Source of the DNA: Chlorobiaceae bacterium | Lineage (GTDB): Bacteria; Bacteroidota; Ignavibacteria; UBA10030; SZUA-254 | Assembly (NCBI GenBank): GCA_013824245.1 | Contig: PNNN01000051.1 | Coordinates: 1-64,000, forward strand | DNA length: 64,000 nt | Reading direction: 5' to 3' | In this document: positions 35,642-50,157 of the stretch, in pieces | How positions within the stretch are numbered: the first letter of the stretch is position 1 | Layout: each line of letters starts with the position of its first letter | The notes under the pieces: generated by a model | Told to the model about the DNA's origin: nothing | Database searches by the model: none | Seen by the model: the letters and a program-made list of their open reading frames with translations, nothing else | Translations under genes and position numbers: made by a program

Positions 35642-36022
35642 ATGGGACAGCAACAACTGCTTCTTTTAATACTCGGTGTAATTATAGTCGGAATAGCGAT
35701 AGCTGTTGGAGTAACGATGTTTGGCGCTCATAGTACCGAAGCAAACAAAGATGGTATTACCAGCGGCTTAATAAGTATATCGGCGAACGCGTACGAATAT
35801 AAAATTAGACCGAGAACATTAGGCGGTGGTCTCCCGTCGTATGTAGGTTATTCGGTACCGGTGAAGTTGCAATCTGATGAAAACGGTGCATATCAGGTAT
35901 TTGGGTCGGTAACAGCATCACAAATACAAATACGCGGAACTTCATCTCAAAATTCGACTTGGAATGCAACATGCACAATTGATAGTATGGGTAAGCCATC
36001 TATAAGTTATAACGGTTGGTAG
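35642..36022 (+). CDS. Type IV pilin-like major subunit, copy 1, ultra-short leader
   Basis: MG|QQQLLLLILGVIIVGIAIAVGVTMFGAHST; in-frame TGA at 35627; hydrophobic N-helix then beta-rich domain ending GW. Confidence 0.65.
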   Translation: MGQQQLLLLILGVIIVGIAIAVGVTMFGAHSTEANKDGITSGLISISANAYEYKIRPRTLGGGLPSYVGYSVPVKLQSDENGAYQVFGSVTASQIQIRGTSSQNSTWNATCTIDSMGKPSISYNGW

Positions 36023-36088: not shown

Positions 36089-36472
36089 ATGGGTCAGCAA
36101 CAACTTCTACTTATCATACTCGGCGTTATAATCGTCGGTATAGCCATTGCAGTTGGTATATCACAGTTCGGCGCACACAGCACACAGGCAAATAAAGACG
36201 GCGTAACGTCGAGCTTGGTAAATATAGCCGCCAACGCATATCAATTTAAGATTCGTCCGACAACCATGGGCGGCGGCGGTGGATCATATGTTAATTATAC
36301 GGTACCTACAAAGATGGCATCGGATGATAACGGTACATACACAATTCAAACTGCCGGAACAGCTACAACCATCATTTTCCGCGGCGTATCATCGCTAAGC
36401 ACAAGCTATACGTCAGATTGTACTGTGGATTCGACCGGAAAGACAACCCTCTCGTATAGCACGGGCTGGTAA
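36089..36472 (+). CDS. Type IV pilin-like major subunit, copy 2 (tandem paralogue)
   Basis: MG|QQQLLLIILGVIIVGIAIAVGISQFGAHST nearly identical to copy 1; AAAGGA RBS; in-frame TAA 15 nt upstream. Confidence 0.7.
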   Translation: MGQQQLLLIILGVIIVGIAIAVGISQFGAHSTQANKDGVTSSLVNIAANAYQFKIRPTTMGGGGGSYVNYTVPTKMASDDNGTYTIQTAGTATTIIFRGVSSLSTSYTSDCTVDSTGKTTLSYSTGW

Positions 36473-36766: not shown

Positions 36767-38116
36767 ATGCCTGAATTTCGGATAGAGGGTATCTCAACTT
36801 CTGGAAAAGCAATACAGGGAATAATAGAAGCTGAGAATCCTCGTGTTGCAAAACAAAAATCGCAGCAAATGGCTGCGACGCGAAAATTTAAGTTACTGCG
36901 TGTTCTGCCACGTACTACGTTCTTATACAAAGTCCAGCGTGGCGGCGAAAAACCTTTACTTGGTGAACAAAAAGCATTCACTAAGGAAGAAGTTCAAGAC
37001 GCCCTTTCTAAAATGGGATTTCGCGTGTTAAGCGTGCGGAAAAAAATCATTGATTTTAAAATTAAACCTCCCAATGCTGAGATTGTTACATTTGTTCGCG
37101 TAAGCGCAGATCTGATTCGTCAGAAACTGCCGTACAACGAGATTCTACAACTCATGGTGAATGACATCGAAAATAAAACTCTCCGCGACTCTATTAGGGA
37201 AATTAATAATGAATTAAAACAGGGAAAAGACAGCGAGAAAGTTTTTGTCAAACAAGAAGGTGTGTTAGGTATATTTGCCGCGCATATGCTCGGTTTGGCA
37301 TCGAAGAGTGGCAACATGGCAGAGATTTACGACAGCACCGCTAAATTTCTTGAGCGCCGCGCTGAATTTAAGAAAAATTTAAAAAGCGCACTCATCATGC
37401 CCGCTGTAACACTGGTAGCATTATTTGGTGCTTGCGTTTATTATGTTGGATTTATTTTCCCGGATATGGCGGAAGTCTTTGTTAGATTAAAAGTAGATAT
37501 GCGCCAATTTCCGATGACATATTTTTCATTGCAAATGAGTTATTTCCTTCAAGATAATTTTCTCGTCATACTTATCCTCACTTTGATACCGGTTGTGTTT
37601 GCAATCCGATTTTTCACCACCGAGCGAGGGAAATTTATTCTTGATCAATATATTTGGAAGATTCCGGTATTAGGGTCTTTGCTTCATAAATCGGCAATCG
37701 AAATTTTTTGCAGAGTATTTTACGCTTTGTATAGCGGGGCTGGTGAAAACATCGACGTGATAAGAATGGCTGCTGAAGCATGCAGTAATAAATATATGGA
37801 ACAGCAGATAAAAACAATTGCAATTCCGATGATGGTTGAAAGAGGCGCCGGTATAACTGAAGCATTCGAAGCAAGCGGCGTGTTTACTAAAACGGCACTC
37901 TCCAGATTCCATTCTGGCGCTGAGACCGGTACCGTTAAGCATACCGCATTGCAGCTTGCCGAGTATTATGAAAAAGAAACAAATTATAAAATGCGAAACG
38001 CTATCGATTTTATCCAACTTTGGGTAAATATGATTATCATGATTGTGCTGACGTTATTGACACTTGTATCTTCAGAAACAGCAACATTCCATCCAAGCAG
38101 CATGGGTGGTAGGTGA
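36767..38116 (+). CDS. pilC: Type IV pilus inner-membrane platform protein (PilC/GspF)
   Basis: Two T2SF-like segments: FVRVSADLIRQKLPYNEIL... and AIEIFCRVFYALYSGAGENIDVIRMAAEACSNKYMEQQI...; TM helices. Confidence 0.88.
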   Translation: MPEFRIEGISTSGKAIQGIIEAENPRVAKQKSQQMAATRKFKLLRVLPRTTFLYKVQRGGEKPLLGEQKAFTKEEVQDALSKMGFRVLSVRKKIIDFKIKPPNAEIVTFVRVSADLIRQKLPYNEILQLMVNDIENKTLRDSIREINNELKQGKDSEKVFVKQEGVLGIFAAHMLGLASKSGNMAEIYDSTAKFLERRAEFKKNLKSALIMPAVTLVALFGACVYYVGFIFPDMAEVFVRLKVDMRQFPMTYFSLQMSYFLQDNFLVILILTLIPVVFAIRFFTTERGKFILDQYIWKIPVLGSLLHKSAIEIFCRVFYALYSGAGENIDVIRMAAEACSNKYMEQQIKTIAIPMMVERGAGITEAFEASGVFTKTALSRFHSGAETGTVKHTALQLAEYYEKETNYKMRNAIDFIQLWVNMIIMIVLTLLTLVSSETATFHPSSMGGR

Positions 38117-38149: not shown

Positions 38150-39940
38150 ATGGCAGATGTTGATATTACCGATAAAATAGGTTACACGCTATTAAAGAAG
38201 GGGATCATTGATTATGAAACCCTCGAAAGGTCACTTCGTGTGCGCGAAAGCGAAGATAAGAAAACACGTCGCAACCTTGGACAAATATTAGTAACCGATT
38301 TTCGGATTGATCATGATCTCGTTTTTCGGGAAGTAGCTAACCTCTATGCGTTTCGGGAAATTTACTTAAGCGATGAGGTAGTTGATCCTCCACGAATCGA
38401 ATTTATTAAAAAATATGTAGACACCTTACCTGAAAATTATCGGGATCTTTTAATTCAAACTAAAATGCTGCCCCTGAGGTTCGACGAAAAACAACCGGAT
38501 AAACTGATAATAATCGCTGGCGATCCGACAGATCGCAACATACCTTCGGTTGCAAGAAATTTTGGTGTGAAAAAATATGAGGTTTGTTATAGCCGTTTGA
38601 AGGATTTGCAAAATCTTTTAGAGCAGGTTGTACCACCCGAGAATGAATTCCTTAAGTTGCTCGCAAATGCCGATGTCCAATTGAATACTGGAATAGAGGA
38701 TGAAGGTGCTGTTGATGAAGAATCACTCGAAAGTGAAATAAATAAAAGTGCTCTTGTTAATCTCGTGGAAGGGTGTCTTGTTGAAGCGGTGCGTTCCGGA
38801 TCGAGCGATATTCATATAATTGGAAAAGAAGGAAACCGGACCGAAATCTTAATGCGACTTGATGGTAATTTGAAAATGTGGCATGTTCAGGATAATACAA
38901 TGCCCGAGGCGGTTGCGGCGGTTGTTAAAGACCGTTCGAAAAATATTGATCGCTTTGAGCGTGAAATGTCGCAAGATGGTTTTATCCAGCGAACAATCGA
39001 CGGGCACCAGATTCGTTTTAGGGTTTCAATCATGCCGATTGTTGGTACAGAGTTTAAACATAAATTCGAGAGTATAGTTATTCGCGTTTTGGATGACCGT
39101 AAAGTTATCACCGATCTTAATAAGCTTGGTCTTCAGGGACCCGCGCGCGATTTTTTCTACAAGGCAATTTCAAAGCCACAAGGGATAGTAATTTTAACAG
39201 GTCCAACCGGAAGTGGAAAAAGTACAACACTTATTGCCGCACTCCATCAAGTTATAGATCCCACTGTGAACGTTTTAACCGTAGAAGATCCGGTCGAATA
39301 TATAATCAAAGGCGCGCGGCAATTAAAAATTGGGCCGAAAATGGATTTCGATCTTGCCATTCGTGGTATCCTCCGGCACGATCCCGATATCGTACTTGTT
39401 GGTGAGATGCGTGATAAAACAACAGCAGAAATTGCTGTAAAACTTGCTAACACAGGTCATCTAACTTTTTCAACTCTACATACAAACGATGCACCAAGTG
39501 CAATCTCACGTCTATTTAAAATGGGAATTGAACCGTTTTTAATTGCATACGCAATTAATATCGTGGTTGCACAACGATTAATCCGTACGCTTTGCCCTAT
39601 CTGTAAAAAACCGATGAAGATGACCGATAAAGACAGAGATATTTTTAATAAATTCGGTTTTACAGATGAAATGATAAAAAACGCAACATTTTTCGATCCT
39701 GTTGGTTGTGATAAATGCAACAGCGGGTGGAAGGGGCGTGCGGCAATTCATGAAGCGCTCTATTTTACACGTGAAATTAAACAACTTATTGTAACTGCAG
39801 GCGATGATATAAATGAAAATGCCCTTCGTGAACAAGCAGTTAAAGATGGAATGTGGACATTGCGTCGTTCAGGGATGGAAAGAATGATGGAAGGGGCTAC
39901 TACATTGGAAGAAATAATCGCTACCACCACAGAAGATTGA
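38150..39940 (+). CDS. pilB: Type IV pilus assembly ATPase (PilB/GspE) with MshEN-like N-terminus
   Basis: LTGPTGSGKSTTLIAAL; VEDPVEYIIKGARQLKI; LRHDPDIVLVGEMRDKTTAEIAVKLANTGHLTFSTLHTNDA; CPIC...CDKC zinc motif. Confidence 0.95.
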   Translation: MADVDITDKIGYTLLKKGIIDYETLERSLRVRESEDKKTRRNLGQILVTDFRIDHDLVFREVANLYAFREIYLSDEVVDPPRIEFIKKYVDTLPENYRDLLIQTKMLPLRFDEKQPDKLIIIAGDPTDRNIPSVARNFGVKKYEVCYSRLKDLQNLLEQVVPPENEFLKLLANADVQLNTGIEDEGAVDEESLESEINKSALVNLVEGCLVEAVRSGSSDIHIIGKEGNRTEILMRLDGNLKMWHVQDNTMPEAVAAVVKDRSKNIDRFEREMSQDGFIQRTIDGHQIRFRVSIMPIVGTEFKHKFESIVIRVLDDRKVITDLNKLGLQGPARDFFYKAISKPQGIVILTGPTGSGKSTTLIAALHQVIDPTVNVLTVEDPVEYIIKGARQLKIGPKMDFDLAIRGILRHDPDIVLVGEMRDKTTAEIAVKLANTGHLTFSTLHTNDAPSAISRLFKMGIEPFLIAYAINIVVAQRLIRTLCPICKKPMKMTDKDRDIFNKFGFTDEMIKNATFFDPVGCDKCNSGWKGRAAIHEALYFTREIKQLIVTAGDDINENALREQAVKDGMWTLRRSGMERMMEGATTLEEIIATTTED

Positions 39941-40021: not shown

Positions 40022-40624
40022 ATGAATACTGGTCAAGTTTTATTGGTAATTGCGGCGCTAACATTATTGTCTATTGTTGCGCTCTCTGTCAATTCTTTGA
40101 TAGTGAGTAAGACTACCACTATTCTGCAAGCCGAAGCATATCTTGCCGCTGTAACGATAGGGCAATCTATGCTAGACGAAATAATGGTTGCGAGATTTGA
40201 TAGCGCTGTGCTGGGTACTAAAAAAGTATTTCCCGGGCAGGCGGCTAAGTTTACGCCTGTTACATATTTTGGACCTGAGGTTAACGGAACAAGCGGTAAC
40301 GAGCGTACCTTAGTTTCTTTACCCGAAAGCCCCGATACTGCCACTATTTATGGTGCATCCCGTTATTATGATGATATCGATGACTACCACTGCTATAAGA
40401 GGTATTATTATTCTGAAGCATTAGGAGTATTCACTGTTACAGATTCTATATTTTATTGGTTAGAGGGTTCCGACGCTACAACTTCCAGCCAAACATTCTA
40501 TAAAAAAATTCTTGTAACTGTTCGTCATCCAAACCTTGCATTCGACGACAATGTATTTAATCCATGGGGTAGCCGCTACTACCTGCAAATTTCCGATGTT
40601 ACCGTATACAGAAGATATTATTAG
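40022..40624 (+). CDS. Minor pilin-like protein (PilV-like position)
   Basis: MNTG|QVLLVIAALTLLSIVALSVNSLIV; in-frame TAA two codons before ATG; small exported protein between pilB and other minor pilins. Confidence 0.55.
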   Translation: MNTGQVLLVIAALTLLSIVALSVNSLIVSKTTTILQAEAYLAAVTIGQSMLDEIMVARFDSAVLGTKKVFPGQAAKFTPVTYFGPEVNGTSGNERTLVSLPESPDTATIYGASRYYDDIDDYHCYKRYYYSEALGVFTVTDSIFYWLEGSDATTSSQTFYKKILVTVRHPNLAFDDNVFNPWGSRYYLQISDVTVYRRYY

Positions 40625-40637
40625 GAGAGGATGATAT

Positions 40638-41219
40638 ATGGGTGTAATGCTTGATATGGTTCTTGCGTCTGTTCTTGTCGGAATTATTATTCTGACTGTA
40701 ATGAATGTCAATATAAATTTAAGCGATGAAAATTACAGGGGTATGGTAGAATTCCATACACAAATGGAAACTATTCAACTTGCCCGTATCATAGAGTTTG
40801 ATTTTTTTAAAATGGGATATCGTCAAACTGTCCGGCCATTTATTAGTATCGCCGAAAGTTCCCATATAAAATTTACTTCTAATCTAAAAGATATAGCTGG
40901 TGCAACTGATGTGATTGAATATGGTCTCGGTGATTTAGTTCTTAATTCAAAAAACCCGCGCGATAAAATGTTGTTCCGCATCGAAAATATCTCCAAAGTG
41001 TATATCAATTACAGCGTTATTCGGTTCAAGCTCACATACTATAACTCAAGAGATTCAATATTATCCGCTCCAATTGTGGGTGCATTGCGCGATAGTATCA
41101 AATCTGTTCGGGTTCAATTGATGTTAGAAAGCTCCGAACCGTATGATACTGCGCGTGTGGGCGGTAAACTTTATTCCCACGCTATGTATTCAAAGCTTTT
41201 ATTCCCAAGAAATTTATAA
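40638..41219 (+). CDS. Minor pilin-like protein (PilW-like position)
   Basis: MG|VMLDMVLASVLVGIIILTVMNVNI; in-frame TGA two codons before ATG. Confidence 0.55.
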   Translation: MGVMLDMVLASVLVGIIILTVMNVNINLSDENYRGMVEFHTQMETIQLARIIEFDFFKMGYRQTVRPFISIAESSHIKFTSNLKDIAGATDVIEYGLGDLVLNSKNPRDKMLFRIENISKVYINYSVIRFKLTYYNSRDSILSAPIVGALRDSIKSVRVQLMLESSEPYDTARVGGKLYSHAMYSKLLFPRNL

Positions 41220-41236
41220 TATAAAGGAGTCTATTT

Positions 41237-42307
41237 ATGGGAAAGATGGCATTATTAGTTGTGTTAGGATTATCGGTGGTGGTTGGAATAATTTCCTTCA
41301 CTATCAATCGTTCTAAATCAGATCTCTCTGAAAATGTTTCCGGTTTCGATAAGTTGACAAATGTGAAAAACATCGCACACACCGCGGTGAACATGATGTT
41401 GAGAAGAATCGATGATCGCGATACAAGTGTTGTCAATCATTTGGTGGTGGGCAAACTCGACTCAGCCGTACTGATCACAAAGATATCAAAGGGCGTCTGC
41501 TCGGTTTCTGTGGCATTAACAAATATGTACTATCCCGATACAATCGATATCCGTTGTCGGGCGCGATATATGGATTCAACACACTACATGAAAATCCGCA
41601 TGCGTCGGCAACCGGTTCCGTTTCCATCTGTGAATGAAGCTTTAGGGTTGCGTGTACCGGATGTAAAATTTACGATTAAGGGAACGGGTGCCGCCAAAGG
41701 GTTTATTGACGGTCGCAATCATGATGTAGATGGTGCGCTTACAATCCGACCCGACACAAACGATAAACCGGGTGTGGGTGTTTTAGCAGGTAAAGATACG
41801 ACGGATGTTTTGATATATGCGGATAATATTAATGGAACAAAAGATGTTGTCGTTGATACAGCATTATTTGATCCAAGAGTATATGCCGATGAATATATCA
41901 ACGCAGCCGATCGTGTTTATACCGATGCGACGATCGCCGGAACTACTACATGGGGAACCAAAGCTGCTCCAGAGATTATTTATTGTAATGGAGATGTACA
42001 TATATCGGGAACAGTCACTGGCTGGGGTATATTGATTGTTAACGGAGATCTGAAAATCACGGGAAGAATCGATTTCCATGGACTAGTTGTTGTATATAAA
42101 GAAACTGTGATTGATGTTGTAGAAGTCTTAGAGACCGGTGGTGGAGCGATTGCTAATGTTATTGGAGGAATGATGATGGCTGGTCCGGCGGGCAGTTCAT
42201 TTGAGATGAGAGGAAGCCAGCAAACTTTATACAGTAAAGATGCTTTAGAATTAGCAAAGTATATCGGTCATCTTCAGTGGTATACTGTTTTATATTGGTA
42301 CGAATAG
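41237..42307 (+). CDS. Minor pilin-like protein with C-terminal beta-repeat domain (PilX/DUF7305-like)
   Basis: MG|KMALLVVLGLSVVVGIISF; C-terminus IIYCNGDVHISGTVTGWGILIVNGDLKITGRIDFHGLVVV. Confidence 0.55.
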   Translation: MGKMALLVVLGLSVVVGIISFTINRSKSDLSENVSGFDKLTNVKNIAHTAVNMMLRRIDDRDTSVVNHLVVGKLDSAVLITKISKGVCSVSVALTNMYYPDTIDIRCRARYMDSTHYMKIRMRRQPVPFPSVNEALGLRVPDVKFTIKGTGAAKGFIDGRNHDVDGALTIRPDTNDKPGVGVLAGKDTTDVLIYADNINGTKDVVVDTALFDPRVYADEYINAADRVYTDATIAGTTTWGTKAAPEIIYCNGDVHISGTVTGWGILIVNGDLKITGRIDFHGLVVVYKETVIDVVEVLETGGGAIANVIGGMMMAGPAGSSFEMRGSQQTLYSKDALELAKYIGHLQWYTVLYWYE

Positions 42308-42506: not shown

Positions 42507-43742
42507 ATGATTGAAGAAGCAAGATCGATAATAAAACAGATAGTAAGCAACATCCCTGAAACAGCTTATGGCGTAGAACGCCAGATGCTGGTCGGCGATT
42601 TGGTTGCACGTCAATCCCAAGAGGAACGGGTTATCATCAAGCGGATGTTCGATAGCTTTCTTATGCGTATGTTCGAAATTTCCGCTTCCGATATTGATCT
42701 TGGCGGATTTGGAAGCCAAGGAAAAATTTGGTATCGCATCCACGGTACTAAAAAACCCGATACAACACTTCCCACCTTCACATTCGATGAAATGAATGTG
42801 CTTATCCAAAGCATCCTGCTTGAACGGCAAAGACAATTTCTGTATGAAAATCGAAATCTTGATTTTTCATATACAATTTTCGAAAATGACCTGATGCATC
42901 GATTTCGTGCTGATACCTATTTCGATCTGGATCAAATCGCGCTCAACCTGCGTGCCATTAACGCAGAGGTTCGACCGTACAAATCGCTTGAGTTTCATCC
43001 CAGCGTTACAAAAGTTCTTAGCTTAGCTCATACAAAAGAGGGATTGATTTTGGTAACTGGCATAACAGGGTCCGGAAAAAGTTCGACTCTTGATAGCATA
43101 CTTGATATGAATAATCACCAGATTGATGCTCATGCAGTGGTCATCGCATCGCCTGTTGAATATGTGCATCGGTCGGATCGTTGCATCATAAGGCATCGTG
43201 AAGTTGGTCGCGACGTACTTTCGTTTAAAGAAGGAACAGTGCAATCGCTTCGTCAGGATCCGGATATTATTATAATCGGTGAGCTTCGCGATCCCGATAC
43301 AATTCTGACTGCGCTTGAAGTAACAGACAGCGGCCATAAAGTGTTTTCAACACTTCACACCTCATCTGCCGTCGACAGCATCGACCGAATAATCGGCGAA
43401 GTACCCCCGATTGAACAAGAGCGGGTTCGTTTGCGGTTGGCAGACGTTGTACAATGTGTGATGTCCCAAAAATTAGTTCCAAGTCTAGACAAAAAACGGG
43501 TGCTGGCAAAGGAAATAATGATTGCTACGCCATCTGTGCGGGCGGCTATTAAGAATAGCAACACCGGTGAAATTTATCAAATGATGTCCGAGTCAGGTGA
43601 ACTTGGAATGTGTACAATGGAGCAAGACTTAAAAAGATTATATTTACTACGAAAAATATCTCTCGAAGTCGCAATGAACTTTGCAAACAACAAGAGACGT
43701 TTACAGCAATTATTGAATATCGCGACTACGAGCGATAAATAA
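42507..43742 (+). CDS. PilT-like retraction ATPase family protein
   Basis: VTGITGSGKSSTLDSIL; LRQDPDIIIIGELRDPDTILTALEVTDSGHKVFSTLHTSSAVDSIDRII; PilT-like C-terminus SVRAAIKNSNTGEIYQMMSESGELGMCTMEQDL. Confidence 0.85.
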   Translation: MIEEARSIIKQIVSNIPETAYGVERQMLVGDLVARQSQEERVIIKRMFDSFLMRMFEISASDIDLGGFGSQGKIWYRIHGTKKPDTTLPTFTFDEMNVLIQSILLERQRQFLYENRNLDFSYTIFENDLMHRFRADTYFDLDQIALNLRAINAEVRPYKSLEFHPSVTKVLSLAHTKEGLILVTGITGSGKSSTLDSILDMNNHQIDAHAVVIASPVEYVHRSDRCIIRHREVGRDVLSFKEGTVQSLRQDPDIIIIGELRDPDTILTALEVTDSGHKVFSTLHTSSAVDSIDRIIGEVPPIEQERVRLRLADVVQCVMSQKLVPSLDKKRVLAKEIMIATPSVRAAIKNSNTGEIYQMMSESGELGMCTMEQDLKRLYLLRKISLEVAMNFANNKRRLQQLLNIATTSDK

Positions 43743-43766: not shown

Positions 43767-45362
43767 ATGGCCTCATTACGCGGCAGAAAATCATCGGCAA
43801 TCGGTATTTTTGTAGATGGGCTTGAATTAAAGCTTGCAAAATTATCGATCAAAAAAGGAAATGTTGTCATCGACGAACTGCAATCGGCTTCGCTCGTTAC
43901 CAAGCTTGAAGAGCGGCAGGTTGCCAACATTGATATGGATAATCTTTCCGACACCGGCGAAACATTTGCTTTAGGCGGCACTGAACCAGCAGCAGAAAGC
44001 TCAGGCAGTAACAGTAATGTTCTTTTAGGATTGATTTCTAAATACGACACGAATGATTACGTATTCAGTTATTCCATCACCGAGCCGAGCATTTATTATC
44101 ACACGCTCGAAAGCGATTTCGGGTTGGAGAAGAAAAAGCTTAAACAGCGAATTCTCGACGAATTAAGGAGTGTTCGTGCAGTTCAACCAGCCCCGGATGC
44201 GATAGATTATTTTTATTCGGTCGAAAAAAATCTCGTCTGTGTGGTGCGCGAAGATGGCGTATCGCTTCTTAATCTTTTAGAAGACATCAAACCGTTTTTG
44301 GGTAAACGTCTTCCGCGGATTTCGTTGATCGAGATAGGCGATGTTGCCCTGATGAACCTTACCCGCGCAAATTATGGTTTTGCACCAGATGAAATCACCA
44401 CAATCATTTATATCGGTGCAGAGTTTACCCGACTTATCTTCATGAAGGGAACTGAGTTTTTCCATTTCGCACCTGTTCTTGGAGAAGGATATGATTCTCC
44501 GAATATTCAGAATACTGTCTACAGTCGATTGCTTCTCGAACAAGATAACATGGGAATTCCGCGCATAGATAAAATTTTTATAGCGGGCGAGAGCAAAAAA
44601 ATCAACTTCGAAGAGTTCATGAAGGAACAACTTCCCGATGTAGCAATACAGTATCTCCTAACGCCCCAACTCGATGCAACATCTCTGCCACCCGAAATTC
44701 AGCAGCAGATACCCGAATTTGCAATACCGATAGCCACAGCGTGGAAAGTATTAGACGACGATCACCCCGGATTTTATCCAACCAACTTATTGCCCGAAAC
44801 CGTTCGCGAAGGACAGCGCGCGTTCAAACTCGCATGGCACGGATACGTACTTCTTATGTTGGTGTTTCTATCTTCATTCTTTTTCACTACGAGGTATGCT
44901 ACAGTTCAACGTGAAATCACTCTTAGACAAAGAACACTTTTGCAGTTAGAAGATAAAATAGGTGAGAATGAAAAAATGAAAACCGCCATCGGCGGTCTTG
45001 AAGAGCAAATTAATCGATTCAACACAGCACTCGCAGTCTACGATTCGCTCATACCCGGAGCTGATAGATGGAATAAAACCATCGCTCAATTAACGAAGGG
45101 TGTTGATGATTTAGGGGCGACATGGATTACGGAGTTGCGCGCGCAACCCGGCGGAGCAATGGCAATTCAAGGGTACGCTCTTTACCGTGGAAGAATTCCG
45201 CGCATAGCCGCTCTTTTTGAGAATACAACATTGACAAAAGTTGAGGTTCGAGAAATTCGACCCAACACACCACCTGTGTACAATTTTATGATTTCAATTC
45301 CCCCGCAACCGGAGAAACCTGCAACTCAAGAGCAGCAACCGGCGGCTGGAACAAAACAATAA
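43767..45362 (+). CDS. PilM-PilN fusion (actin-like cytoplasmic domain + TM + periplasmic domain)
   Basis: AIGIFVDGLELKLAKLS...; internal GFYPTNLLPETVREGQRAFKL (PilN NLLP motif) followed by TM YVLLMLVFLSSFFF and coiled-coil. Confidence 0.75.
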   Translation: MASLRGRKSSAIGIFVDGLELKLAKLSIKKGNVVIDELQSASLVTKLEERQVANIDMDNLSDTGETFALGGTEPAAESSGSNSNVLLGLISKYDTNDYVFSYSITEPSIYYHTLESDFGLEKKKLKQRILDELRSVRAVQPAPDAIDYFYSVEKNLVCVVREDGVSLLNLLEDIKPFLGKRLPRISLIEIGDVALMNLTRANYGFAPDEITTIIYIGAEFTRLIFMKGTEFFHFAPVLGEGYDSPNIQNTVYSRLLLEQDNMGIPRIDKIFIAGESKKINFEEFMKEQLPDVAIQYLLTPQLDATSLPPEIQQQIPEFAIPIATAWKVLDDDHPGFYPTNLLPETVREGQRAFKLAWHGYVLLMLVFLSSFFFTTRYATVQREITLRQRTLLQLEDKIGENEKMKTAIGGLEEQINRFNTALAVYDSLIPGADRWNKTIAQLTKGVDDLGATWITELRAQPGGAMAIQGYALYRGRIPRIAALFENTTLTKVEVREIRPNTPPVYNFMISIPPQPEKPATQEQQPAAGTKQ

Positions 45363-45396: not shown

Positions 45397-46281
45397 TTGT
45401 CATACATAGTACGCAATACCGTTGTCTTAAGCATTGTTCTCGTGTTGATACTGGCAGTGGGATTGTTTTTTACATCTCTCTCGCTTCCCAAAAAACTCAA
45501 GAACATTGAATCAGAGATCAGGCGTATTGAAGTTGAGTTGCAAAATACTCCCGATCTCGCAAACACATACAACACAGTTTCTGCTCGCCTCGACGAAATC
45601 AAGAAGCGCTGGGAGACACGCAACAAAGATGTACCGCCGCGCGATATTACGGGCGAAACGTACGGCTATTTCAACCGTACAATGGACATCAGCGGTGAAA
45701 TTAAAATGGACATGACCTATGTTGGTCCGAGAGACTTTGGAAGTTTCGGATACAATGTTTATTCGTTAAAAGGTGAAGGTCCATTCCGGAATCTTTATAA
45801 TTTTGTCTGGCTGACCGAAAGTGGAAAACGGCTGTTTAAAGTTGCGAATCTCGTTCTTCGTGGATACGAATCGAAATCGGCAACTACGAATGAAACAAAA
45901 ATTCTCGTTTTGTTCGAGATGGAAGTACAGGCATACTATTCTTCGCTGCCGGAATTGAATAATGCGCCGGGTATGATTACAGCAATGAAAAAATCACTCG
46001 GAATGAATCCGTTCCATCCATTAATCATGCACGAAATTCCGCCCCCGCAAGCCGACGAGATTGAAGTTGAGCGCTCGATTTTGAAAGCGGTTATTCCGGG
46101 CAAAGCTTTTATTGTAGATCAGAATCAAAAATCACGGACGTTAGAAGAAGGCGATAAAGTATATCTCGGTTATGTCACACGCATTTTGCCGAACGAAGGC
46201 AAAGTTGAATGTCTTTTGAATCGTGGCGGCGTTGCCGAACGTTATGAACTAAATATTCAACAAGGTCAACCGCTTAAGTAA
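45397..46281 (+). CDS. PilO-like protein with PilP/GspC-like C-terminus (TTG start)
   Basis: N-terminal TM, coiled coil, then SILKAVIPGKAFIVDQNQKSRTLEEGDKVYLGYVTRILPNEGKVECLL; GGAG 6 nt before TTG. Confidence 0.6.
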   Translation: MSYIVRNTVVLSIVLVLILAVGLFFTSLSLPKKLKNIESEIRRIEVELQNTPDLANTYNTVSARLDEIKKRWETRNKDVPPRDITGETYGYFNRTMDISGEIKMDMTYVGPRDFGSFGYNVYSLKGEGPFRNLYNFVWLTESGKRLFKVANLVLRGYESKSATTNETKILVLFEMEVQAYYSSLPELNNAPGMITAMKKSLGMNPFHPLIMHEIPPPQADEIEVERSILKAVIPGKAFIVDQNQKSRTLEEGDKVYLGYVTRILPNEGKVECLLNRGGVAERYELNIQQGQPLK

Positions 46282-46300
46282 GTTAAATTACGGAGTGTAC

Positions 46301-47569
46301 ATGAAAAAGAACTATATATTTGTTTTCGCCCTTTGTTTGTTGTTCGTTCAAGCATCTTTCGGTCAGGGAAGAGATGCACGATTGAAAACGAAGGGATATG
46401 TGAACCCACAGGAGATTGTTTCTCTCGATTCAACTATGCGAATGGATCAAGCATTGCTCGTTATAAATGAATTGAGTAAGCAATTTGCGGGGAAAATAAT
46501 AATCGATTTGGAAAAAAGAAAAGGACCGATCGGAGTGTATGTGGTCAATCAGCACTGGCGCGATGCGCTGGATATGATTTTAACGCGCAACGGCATGATG
46601 TGCGTTGAAGAAGCTGATTACATCCGGATACTGCAGGCGGGAGCCGCACCAGAAGTTGAACGTGGCGCCAGCGGGGGAATTCCCGGAGAACCGCCTCCAA
46701 CTCTGGATAGCCGCGATGTAAAAATTTCGGCGGTATTCTTCAGCACCGATTTGTCGAAGTTGCAGGAATTCGGAATAAGCTGGCATTTCTTCCGGAATAA
46801 AGCAAAGGAACCACTTGAAGAATTTTATCTTTCAGCAGGGTTGGGTCTTGGCGATACAGCTGGAGTTGTTCCGGCAATGGCAAGAGAATCAAAATCGCAA
46901 ATGAATATTCCTCCATTGCGTAGAGGGATAGGAATTCTCCAGACACCCCCTGAGTTTAATTTTGCAAACATAGATGCGTTAATAAAATTTTTCGGCTCCA
47001 ACGAACTGGGCGAAGTAATTACCAGTCCCGATATAGTTGTGCGAAACGGTAAGCCGGGCAGAATTCAGGTTGGAAAAGATATTTTTATAACCTCGCGGGA
47101 TATTGCAGGTAATACAATCAACCAGCTAATATCCACCGGAACTATCATCGAAGTTACTCCTACAGTTTACACACAAACGGACACCGATTTTGTTTATCTC
47201 AATATGACGATCGAACAAAGCGATGCGGCACCCGGTGCAACAGGTCCTGAAATCTCTCGCAATCAGGTGAAGACACATACTTTGCTTTACAACGGCGAAG
47301 AAACCGTAATCGGCGGTTTGATTAGAACACAAGACGTCAATCGAAGAGAGGGGATACCATTTCTAAAAGATTTGCCGTGGTGGTTTCTTGGATTAAGATA
47401 TGTTTTTGGCTCTGATGTAAAATACAATACGAAAACAGAGTTAATTGTTCTCTTAAAAGTTGAACTACTCGAACCGATACGAGATCGAATGCTGCGACGA
47501 ACTACGCGGCAAGAGTTGATAAACAGTAAACGCAAAGCTAATCAGCGCGATTTCGAAAAAAATCCATGA
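46301..47569 (+). CDS. Secretin family protein (PilQ/GspD-like), short form
   Basis: Signal peptide, STN-like segment, LGEVITSPDIVVRNGKPGRIQVGKDIFI...GTIIEVTPTVYTQTDTDFVYLNMTIEQS...NGEETVIGGLIRTQDVNRREGIPFLKDLPW. Confidence 0.9.
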   Translation: MKKNYIFVFALCLLFVQASFGQGRDARLKTKGYVNPQEIVSLDSTMRMDQALLVINELSKQFAGKIIIDLEKRKGPIGVYVVNQHWRDALDMILTRNGMMCVEEADYIRILQAGAAPEVERGASGGIPGEPPPTLDSRDVKISAVFFSTDLSKLQEFGISWHFFRNKAKEPLEEFYLSAGLGLGDTAGVVPAMARESKSQMNIPPLRRGIGILQTPPEFNFANIDALIKFFGSNELGEVITSPDIVVRNGKPGRIQVGKDIFITSRDIAGNTINQLISTGTIIEVTPTVYTQTDTDFVYLNMTIEQSDAAPGATGPEISRNQVKTHTLLYNGEETVIGGLIRTQDVNRREGIPFLKDLPWWFLGLRYVFGSDVKYNTKTELIVLLKVELLEPIRDRMLRRTTRQELINSKRKANQRDFEKNP

Positions 47570-47601
47570 TGATGATTTATAATTTGCAAAGGAAATTACT
47601 T

Positions 47602-50157
47602 ATGAAATCAAAAATTGTTTTTGGTCTGTTCGTTGTTCTCCTTGCACTCACATTGTGGAGTTGCAAAGATACACCGCCTACAAGCAGTATCGGAACTTCG
47701 ACCATACAGGGATATGTGTATGATGCGATTACAGGTAGTTATTTACAAAATGTTACGGCGGTTCTTGCTACAGAAGCGAAACGGGAAACAACATTTACCG
47801 GCGCTGACGGCATATTCCTTTTTAAAGTCGATTTATCGAACCTTCAAAACCAAAGCGCCACTATCAGTCTTCAAAAGTTCGGATACATATCCGAATCGTT
47901 CTCGATATCTGTTGCTAAAGATACTACGTTGAGTGTCAGCTTGACGATCGATTACTCGTCATCGGCGGTGGTTGTGGGTGTTGTTAGGGATAGCGCAACC
48001 AGTTATCCGTTACGCGATACCAAAGTGCACCTCACAGTTCCTGGCGCCGATACATCGGTTATCACAGGTGTTGACGGAAGTTATAGACTTTCTGCAGACT
48101 TGGTTGATTTGCAATCTCTTACTGCCCTGGTTACTGTGGAAAAGGCGGGCTACCGCACTAAACAAATTCCTGCCACTTTAACGCGCGGACAAACCAATAA
48201 TATGGGAAATGTTTTGCTCAGAGTGGATATGGGATCAACTGCAGGTCAGTTGATGGGGAGAGTGCTCGATAACAGAACCCGTCTTCCCATTACAAATGCT
48301 AATTTGGTTCTCTCAGCCGGAAGCTTCATTGATAGTACAAATAGTTCGATAAATGGTGATTTCTCTTTCACTGTCGATCTTGCCGGACTTACGGCTTTGA
48401 ATGGACAGTTAAGAGTTTCTAATCCCGGATATATATCAAGGACATTCAATGTCACAATCGAAAAAGCAAAAACTCTTGAGGTTGAAATTATTCTTGATAG
48501 AGATACTACAGCGTCATCTGCACTTATAACGGGAATATTACGGGATAGTCTCACATTATATCCACTTCGGAATGGCACAATCTTATTGACTTTACCGGGT
48601 GTTGTGGATTCGGTAATAACACCTACAGATGGATCATTTAGATTAACCGCCGATTTAGTTGATCGTGATTCGCTGCCTGTTTTAATCACCGCTTACAAAG
48701 CGGGTTACAGAACCAAGAGATTTACTTTCACAATTTATCGCGGGCAATCAACAAACCTCGGTGATGTTTTGTTGGCTGTAGATGCGGCGTCTACTATTGC
48801 TCAGATTGTTGGGCGGGTATTTGATTCGCAAACGAAACTGCCGCTTACAAATGCACATGTTACTTTATATTCAAATCTGCTTGTTGATAGTTTGCAAACA
48901 ACTTTCAGCGGAGAATATTCGTTCTCAATCAATCTTCAAGGGTTACCGTCATTGCCCGGATTATTGAAGGTAGAAAAGTCTGGATATAAACAGCAATCTG
49001 TTAACTTCAACGTTGAAGCCGGCAAACAGGTATCAAATGACTTTTACCTTATTCGCGATACCACAACCGGTATCCGGGACTCAAGTGATTCCGGTTTGTA
49101 TGCGCGGTCTATAGCATTGATGAGTATAAGCGCGCGTGAAATTTCGGTGTATGGAGTAGGTGGCACTGAATCTTCCATCATCACATGGGAAGTACGCGAC
49201 TCACTTGGTTTCCCAATCGATATTGATCATCGCGATACTGTCGAGTTCCAGTTGATCGGTGAGCCGGTTGTTGGTGGAGCATACGTTACACCGCAGCGTG
49301 CGCTTACAAATGTTTCAGGTCGTGTTGCAACTACCGTGAACAGCGGGACAAAATCGGGCGTACTGCAATTTGTTGCAAAACTTTATCGTGAACGTGACAG
49401 TGTCTGGATTTACTCAACACCTGTCATAATTACGGTTAATGCAGGATTACCGGATCAAGTCCATTTCACAGTCGCTGCTCATAGATATAACTTCCCCGCT
49501 TATGACTGGCTCGGTAGAACCGATGCAATTACAGTTCAGGTTGGAGACAAATATAGTAATCCGGTTAAATCTAATACCGCTGTTTATTTCAGCACAACCG
49601 GTGGAATTATCGGTGCATCCGGATTTACAGATAGAGTGACTGGCCAGGCAACTGTTCAGCTTCAGAGCGGTAATCCTCACCCACCGGATACCATATATGG
49701 TGTTCCTAATATGGCAAAGATCGCGGCTGTTACTATGGGTGAAAACGGAATCGCTGTGCATGATACCATAATTATTCTCTTCTCAGGGTGGTCTCAAATT
49801 AGCGATGTTAGTGCTGATAGTTTCAATGTTCCGAGGAGCGGAAGATCTGGCAGGATATACTTCAAAGTGTCTGATAGGTTTGGTAATCCGCTATCCTCAG
49901 GGACCCACATTGGAGTTACTTTGCAATATACGCCTCCTCCAAACAGTCAGGTTAATTTAAGTGTTACAGGATTCATTGATGTAACGCTTGGAGACACTCA
50001 GGCGCGAGGACTTGGAACGACCGATTTCTGGTTCGAGGTGGTTGACCAAACCCAAGGAGGAGTTTCTTCAGCAATACCCTGTAATGTTATTATCAGGGTG
50101 ACGAGCGAAAACGGTAACCCACCTGATGCCTCAATACCCGGCATCATAGGCGGGTGA
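47602..50157 (+). CDS. Large lipoprotein with repeated CarboxypepD_reg-like domains and Ig/invasin-like C-terminal domains
   Basis: MKSKIVFGLFVVLLALTLWSC lipobox; repeats GVVRDSATSYPLRD/GILRDSLTLYPLRN and GRVLDNRTRLPITNAN/GRVFDSQTKLPLTNAH. Confidence 0.75.
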   Translation: MKSKIVFGLFVVLLALTLWSCKDTPPTSSIGTSTIQGYVYDAITGSYLQNVTAVLATEAKRETTFTGADGIFLFKVDLSNLQNQSATISLQKFGYISESFSISVAKDTTLSVSLTIDYSSSAVVVGVVRDSATSYPLRDTKVHLTVPGADTSVITGVDGSYRLSADLVDLQSLTALVTVEKAGYRTKQIPATLTRGQTNNMGNVLLRVDMGSTAGQLMGRVLDNRTRLPITNANLVLSAGSFIDSTNSSINGDFSFTVDLAGLTALNGQLRVSNPGYISRTFNVTIEKAKTLEVEIILDRDTTASSALITGILRDSLTLYPLRNGTILLTLPGVVDSVITPTDGSFRLTADLVDRDSLPVLITAYKAGYRTKRFTFTIYRGQSTNLGDVLLAVDAASTIAQIVGRVFDSQTKLPLTNAHVTLYSNLLVDSLQTTFSGEYSFSINLQGLPSLPGLLKVEKSGYKQQSVNFNVEAGKQVSNDFYLIRDTTTGIRDSSDSGLYARSIALMSISAREISVYGVGGTESSIITWEVRDSLGFPIDIDHRDTVEFQLIGEPVVGGAYVTPQRALTNVSGRVATTVNSGTKSGVLQFVAKLYRERDSVWIYSTPVIITVNAGLPDQVHFTVAAHRYNFPAYDWLGRTDAITVQVGDKYSNPVKSNTAVYFSTTGGIIGASGFTDRVTGQATVQLQSGNPHPPDTIYGVPNMAKIAAVTMGENGIAVHDTIIILFSGWSQISDVSADSFNVPRSGRSGRIYFKVSDRFGNPLSSGTHIGVTLQYTPPPNSQVNLSVTGFIDVTLGDTQARGLGTTDFWFEVVDQTQGGVSSAIPCNVIIRVTSENGNPPDASIPGIIGG

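Follow-up and report, generated by a model that had tools for sequence, protein, structure and literature searches.

The closest described counterparts of the protein studied here are PilM and PilN of the type IVa pili (P. aeruginosa 5eou, T. thermophilus 2ych and M. xanthus 3jc8), which provide an actin-like fold, an INLLP-type peptide before a transmembrane (TM) helix, a coiled coil and a periplasmic domain, and which are found with PilO, PilP, the secretin, PilB and PilT. In Thermus, the pilM and pilN genes are arranged head to tail with an overlap, and it has been shown that PilM alone does not stimulate the assembly ATPase PilF and only PilN-bound PilM does so; together with PilN, even PilM K26A, a variant unable to bind ATP, stimulates PilF (PMC6325625). 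In type II secretion systems (T2SS), GspL/PulL/EpsL is a single membrane protein that combines a cytoplasmic actin-like part with a periplasmic ferredoxin-like one, PilM and GspL are treated as equivalents (PMC10191384, PMC4471445), and GspL/PulL has been described as a fusion of PilM and PilN (PMC10191384). A fused PilM/PilN-like protein is also found in the Cytophaga/Flavobacterium-type 'T2SS' of the Bacteroidetes (PMC5553014), the same phylum as that of the locus described here, and the Cytophaga system branches with the type IVa pili according to Denise et al. (PMC6668835).

The window, by which we mean the whole stretch of 64,000 nucleotides that was analysed, carries an operon of pilin-like genes, pilC, pilB, three minor-pilin-like genes, pilT, pilMN, pilOP, a secretin gene and a gene for a carboxypeptidase-regulatory-domain protein; the genes from the first pilin-like gene to the secretin gene are on the + strand. 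PilMN shares with type IVa PilM and PilN all the elements and the neighbourhood listed above, and it differs from them in being one chain and not two, in the loss of nucleotide pocket residues and in that PilO and PilP are also fused. Most probably this locus, whose host is of the Ignavibacteria type, encodes a retractable type IVa-like pilus machine, standard among the members of the phylum that bear type IV pili (T4P), in which PilM-PilN and PilO-PilP are joined head to tail and a docked NLLP peptide would hard-wire the stimulation of the ATPase.

The fused PilM-PilN protein

The pilMN gene (43767..45362), recognised by its relatives, a phylum survey, Foldseek and profile matches, encodes a protein of 531 aa; it starts with ATG, has a stop 3 codons upstream and is directly preceded by a purine-rich stretch resembling a ribosome binding site. 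When the lone window protein was searched against Pfam and, by phmmer, against the PDB no match was found and profiles were required. An alignment of 27 PilMN sequences (A1) was the input to the AlphaFold (AF2) model, whose pLDDT was 78.5, and an alignment of 29 sequences of 19-55% identity (A3) was the basis of the divergent-family profile.

The first 330 residues (43767..44756), which include AIGIFVDGLELKLAKL at residues 11-26, form a PilM-like actin-fold domain that is collinear with canonical PilM to its C-terminus. The ten best PDB matches of the model in Foldseek were all PilM chains, with E values from 2.6e-15 to 1.3e-12 (5eoy at 2.6e-15 and the PilM:PilN1-12 chain 5eou at 8.7e-15; 5eoy, 5eou and 2ych span 3e-15 to 3e-13), and below them came FtsA at 4e-11 and the EpsL cytoplasmic domain at 4e-6; 3hrg was also among the structure matches. 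The A3 profile matched T. thermophilus PilM 2ych with an E of 0.0042, and hhalign of A3 against a single-sequence canonical PilM gave a match that was weak (E 0.018) but ran end to end over residues 6-330. There was no Pfam match in the PilM half and no hhalign match with single sequences of E. coli HofM; the identity of this half is therefore based on the fold together with the weak sequence matches. Its nucleotide pocket is degenerate. Canonical PilM carries the motifs GLDIGS...K, (V/L)DIGA and SGGG/AGG, and an intact ATP site of this kind (GxDIGS, DIG and GG) was not found in the PilMN family: the first pocket Asp (column 15) is F/Y/T/S/M and is Asp in 0/29 members, the second (phosphate-2) Asp is replaced by Y/R/Q/H in 28/29, and the pocket GG is mostly GE, NN or GD. 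From these substitutions we infer that the PilM half has probably lost ATP binding. A PilM_2 match elsewhere in the genome (C47; L096 5955-6824) was considered as a separate PilM and rejected, as it adjoins rsmD/coaD and a ComEA-like gene outside the pilus operon; we take this actin-like protein to resemble the DUF3822/BT_3980 type, of unknown function. The PilM_2 match on C4 in the same genome is probably FtsA.

The PilN half has a transmembrane helix at residues ~357-377 (44835..44897), seen in the alignments and in the AF2 model and opened by a Trp, W357, that is invariant in A3 (29/29), followed by a coiled coil and a periplasmic domain at residues ~378-511 (44898..45299), whose strands and helices are present in the model. 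The A3 profile matched M. xanthus PilN (3jc8_Na) with an E of 6.6e-13, the match starting exactly at INLLP, and PF05137 matched 10 of the 29 A3 members (best 1.3e-5). In hhalign, A3 matched a canonical PilN at 2.4e-7 and E. coli HofN at 6.8e-5, both from INxLP and in the same register. All the parts of a PilN were thus found, namely the INLLP peptide, a single TM helix, the coiled coil and the periplasmic domain, with the peptide being internal, and judging from these alignments the PilN portion would be almost complete, starting at the INLLP peptide. The original prediction, that PilM and PilN are fused in one polypeptide, is therefore confirmed, the order being PilM-like domain, linker, NLLP, TM helix, coiled coil and PilN periplasmic domain; a lack of PilM or PilN homology in either half, named in advance as grounds for abandoning it, was looked for by profile, hhalign and Foldseek and did not occur.

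Could the fusion be an error of sequencing or gene calling, or the result of an isolated stop-codon loss of recent date? The head to tail and overlapping genes of Thermus show that one small change could fuse them (PMC6325625), but PilMN is a single open frame in 47 of 60 relatives (38-96% identity) and in dozens of genera at identities as low as 19%, with the motif and the linker conserved, and where a split seemed to be present it lay at the end of a contig or in a single disrupted duplicate. We therefore count this explanation as already refuted, with hardly any probability left to it. The duplicate is a second operon copy in genome G230 (L128 8505-11343) in which pilMN is disrupted, ~840 bp separating the halves; it was rejected as a true PilM/PilN split because the PilM end remains joined to PilN. 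Outside the T2SS, no published description of a PilM-PilN fusion was found in a limited literature search, and a prior report is possible; within that search this variant of the type IVa pilus platform is apparently new and undescribed, and it is widespread.

The junction and its possible mechanism

The PilN half is entered through FYPTNLLPETVREGQRAFKL (residues 336-355), within which TNLLP (residues 339-343; 44781..44795) is an internal copy of the N-terminal PilM-binding peptide of PilN. As had been predicted, the NLLP motif is internal (residues 340-343), and the alignments put TNLLP in the same register as the INLLP peptide from M. xanthus PilN, INFLP from E. coli HofN and the corresponding peptide from another canonical PilN. 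In hhalign the last residues of canonical PilM align to residues 321-330 and PilN residue 3 aligns to residue 338; the junction therefore consists of a complete PilM, a linker of ~8 residues and a PilN that starts near its residue 3. The mean column information in A3 is 1.30 bits for the linker (330-338), compared to 2.53 for residues 339-343 and 1.64 for the whole protein, and among the 531 columns P343 ranks 8th and N340 29th (n=29), Pro343 being kept in 27/29 sequences. The motif is thus selectively kept, in the pattern that would be expected of a retained binding peptide.

Whether the peptide also docks in the PilM groove of its own chain is a matter of the model. The mean pLDDT of residues 331-340 is 90, and the TM-score was highest to 5eou (0.65; the remaining PilM chains among the ten best matches score 0.57-0.62). 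The 5eou chain has 372 residues and is recorded as PilM plus PilN, PilM alone having 357, and this record suggests that it was engineered with a tether of the same kind. A sub-profile running from the PilM C-terminus to the TM helix did not recover 5eou. The pLDDT and the better TM-score to 5eou are no more than suggestive, and docking is plausible. It could also be that NLLP no longer docks and is a relic or a juxtamembrane turn, the fusion serving merely as a tether; docking is a prediction, and in far relatives the motif letters drift to SFVP, NLFG and NMLV. But conservation is position-specific inside a variable linker region, the local pLDDT is confident and the best TM match is the chain of PilM plus PilN, and we regard loss of docking as unlikely, though it is a serious alternative.

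We propose the following mechanism. The internal NLLP would stay docked, in cis or in a neighbouring subunit, in the PilN-binding groove of PilM, which would keep PilM permanently membrane-bound and in its PilN-bound state. The fusion would thereby hard-wire the ATPase-stimulating state of PilM, the ATP pocket of the PilM half would be free to decay once stimulation was hard-wired, and PilOP would relay the contact onward to the secretin. This mechanism is based on the Thermus K26A result, with which a covalent PilMN lacking an ATP site is compatible in function; docking, constitutive stimulation and the production of a pilus are inferred. A joint that is usually seen as regulated docking is thus covalent across a large part of the phylum while the retraction motor is kept, and PilMN offers a test of whether the machine requires PilM to be released from PilN or to bind ATP at all. 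PilMN and PilOP are also natural single-chain versions of platform proteins for structural work.

A type IVa pilus or a type II secretion system

Downstream of pilMN, pilOP (45397..46281) encodes a TM helix, coiled coil and PilO domain (residues ~1-190) fused to a PilP/HR-like domain (residues ~202-287). Its model has the TM helix, the PilO fold and a C-terminal beta domain, and Foldseek matched it to PilO (3jc8_Oa at 6.9e-6, and also 2rjz) and to PilP (3jc8_Pa at 3.5e-3); in hhalign, residues 11-193 matched canonical PilO at 4.1e-5 and residues 202-273, with the DPFxPxI stretch, matched canonical PilP at 3.2e-4. These scores, and with them the PilO/PilP division, are moderate. With pilOP a PilO-PilP fusion, the four-protein PilMNOP subcomplex is therefore encoded by two genes, and PilM, PilN, PilO and PilP were not found as separate proteins. 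In PilOP the usual lipoprotein anchor of PilP would be absent. A locus with canonical separate pilM-N-O-P (L140) comes from a fragmented bin of 82% completeness with possible contamination and was used for reference only.

The other neighbours are a PilC/GspF platform protein (36767..38116; PF00482, 4.9e-27), a PilB-type assembly ATPase (38150..39940; TIGR02538 at 1.9e-122 compared to 6.8e-112 for GspE), a PilT-family retraction ATPase (42507..43742; TIGR01420) and a short secretin of 424 aa that is PilQ/GspD-like (46295..47569; PF00263, 1.5e-27). The window PilT scores 318.1 bits, 1 bit below the curated cut-off of 319.1, and the model is above cut-off in 57 genomes. The secretin scores near-equally with the GspD and PilQ models, slightly better with GspD. 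Directly 3' of it lies a gene for a large protein in which carboxypeptidase-regulatory-like and invasin-like domains are repeated (47566-50157), homologs of which are found at the same site in several relatives and which may be a pilus-associated surface protein.

A PilB and a PilT-family ATPase together with PilC in one system are the mark of type IVa pili, and they were found here. In a small tree, which carries long-branch warnings, the operon PilB is apart from a clade of E. coli GspE and Bacteroidota T2SS-like ATPases (96/96). The T2SSL family (PF05134) was searched in the genome and is absent, hhalign against a single sequence of E. coli GspL was insignificant, and the GspL setting of a GspE partner without a retraction ATPase was not observed. 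The original prediction of a GspL-like covalent link was right by analogy, as GspL/PulL is itself described as a fusion of this kind (PMC10191384). Its further proposal, a position of the locus intermediate between the T4P and T2SS architectures, was not supported, given the presence of PilT, the separation of PilB from GspE and the absence of the T2SSL family; the locus is better read as a type IVa pilus variant whose platform is condensed by head-to-tail fusions. The rival claim, that the locus is a T2SS and PilMN a divergent GspL, could draw on the same domain order, the degenerate pocket, the EpsL match, the secretin score and the YDMLHG of E. coli GspL, which stands at the place of NLLP just before the TM helix. 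But the E values of the PilM structures are about 9 orders of magnitude better than that of EpsL, no PF05134 match or significant GspL alignment was found, NLLP is clearly kept, the actin-like domain of GspL is shorter, PilB is separate from GspE, and a PilT-family ATPase, missing from the T2SS, is adjacent and co-occurs in 130 of 131 genomes. Moreover, a distinct T2SS-like locus, with a fused GspL-like protein, typical pilins and a prepilin peptidase, is found in the same phylum and even in the same family (L137). We consider the T2SS claim very improbable.

These T2SS-like loci (L137, L138, L139, L141, L145 and L146) carry a second kind of fused PilM/PilN-like protein together with leader-bearing pilins, and typical prepilin peptidase matches lie in or near them. 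The Bacteroidetes 'T2SS' (L137-L139, L145 and L146), which are similar to the Cytophaga system (PMC5553014), differ from the pilMN operon in their own prepilin peptidase and leader-bearing pilins, in having no PilT in the locus, in that NLLP is mostly lost and in that the PilO-like and PilP-like genes are separate. As a fused protein occurs both in the PilT operon and in the T2SS-like loci, covalent linkage does not mark an intermediate; with PilT retained beside the covalent joint, it is therefore not what separates secretion systems from retractable pili.

The type IVa-like reading also agrees with the distribution of the fusion, a survey of which had been proposed with the original prediction. 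The fusion was found in 130 of 395 genomes of the Bacteroidota phylum, and a PilT-family ATPase (E<=1e-60) in 131, which are the same 130 and G250; PilT-bearing systems of the phylum thus have the fused protein as a rule. The gene order pilC-pilB-...-pilT-pilMN-pilOP-secretin is kept in 31/31 loci examined from many families, as far as each extends. The arrangement probably extends to Verrucomicrobia, where the Amuc_1101 family (NF045709, MUL2B, 'PilM-like') would be a PilM-PilN fusion too: in the alignment with NF045709, 276-466 lies on 287-473 of 608, which spans the PilM end, NLLP, TM helix and PilN region. Scores of 22-29 are far below its cut-off of 650 bits; all 27 close relatives match weakly and the window PilMN has 22.7 bits.

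Leaderless pilins and the prepilin peptidase

Two pilin-like genes at the 5' end of the operon (35642..36022 and 36089..36472) encode proteins that begin MGQQQLLL, and the start MGQQQLLL(I/V)xLGxIIVGIA is near-identical phylum-wide (window; L098-L105, L119 and L126). A profile of 17 such proteins (A6) had type IV pilins as its best PDB matches, Geobacter geopilin at 0.0037 and Thermus PilA5 and others more weakly. Residue 9 of A6 falls on residue 6 of the mature pilins, the Glu5 is replaced by Leu and the proteins begin about three residues before the mature start. All 17 of the genes have a stop 0-9 codons upstream and lack a start codon in the intervening stretch, and therefore no ordinary leader is possible; the (K/R)G leader and Glu5 of prepilins processed by PilD were not found.

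Reviews describe prepilin peptidase as universal in type IV filaments (PMC10191384). When Peptidase_A24 was searched in the 130 operon-bearing genomes, 16 had a match and 114 had no recognisable prepilin peptidase; in 12 of the 16 the match was within ~12 kb of a T2SS-like PilN match and not of the pilMN operon. A relaxed search of 80 negative genomes gave none above cut-off, with 12/14 controls positive. The genome of the window has one Peptidase_A24 gene (C25) and its sister species G001 has none. A prepilin peptidase of an unrecognised kind in these genomes is possible. We lean slightly towards a retractable type IV pilus with no need of a prepilin peptidase, in which leaderless pilins lacking Glu5 and starting at about the mature position would be assembled by the PilMN and PilOP platform. 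If true, it would contradict the rule that no type IV filament can do without a pilin, a prepilin peptidase, an ATPase and a platform, and it would explain the genome of Melioribacter roseus (Bacteroidetes/Chlorobi group), in which pilT, pilQ, pilB and pilC were reported and no pilA or pilD (PMC3534657). Leaderless pilins together with the fusions raise the question which parts of type IV filaments are truly obligatory, and this side result may matter more than the PilMN fusion.

Three minor-pilin-like genes without long leaders lie between pilB and pilT (40022..42307; 40022-40624, 40638-41219 and 41237-42307); they were recognised by position and an N-terminal hydrophobic segment, and Pfam gave them no identity. 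Their homologs are found in a second partial cluster of the same genome (L142, C15:36000-40600) with a PilB-like ATPase and without pilMN, and two further T2SSE-family ATPases lie on C14 and C6 (L143 and L144), one of them adjoining a response-regulator-like protein.
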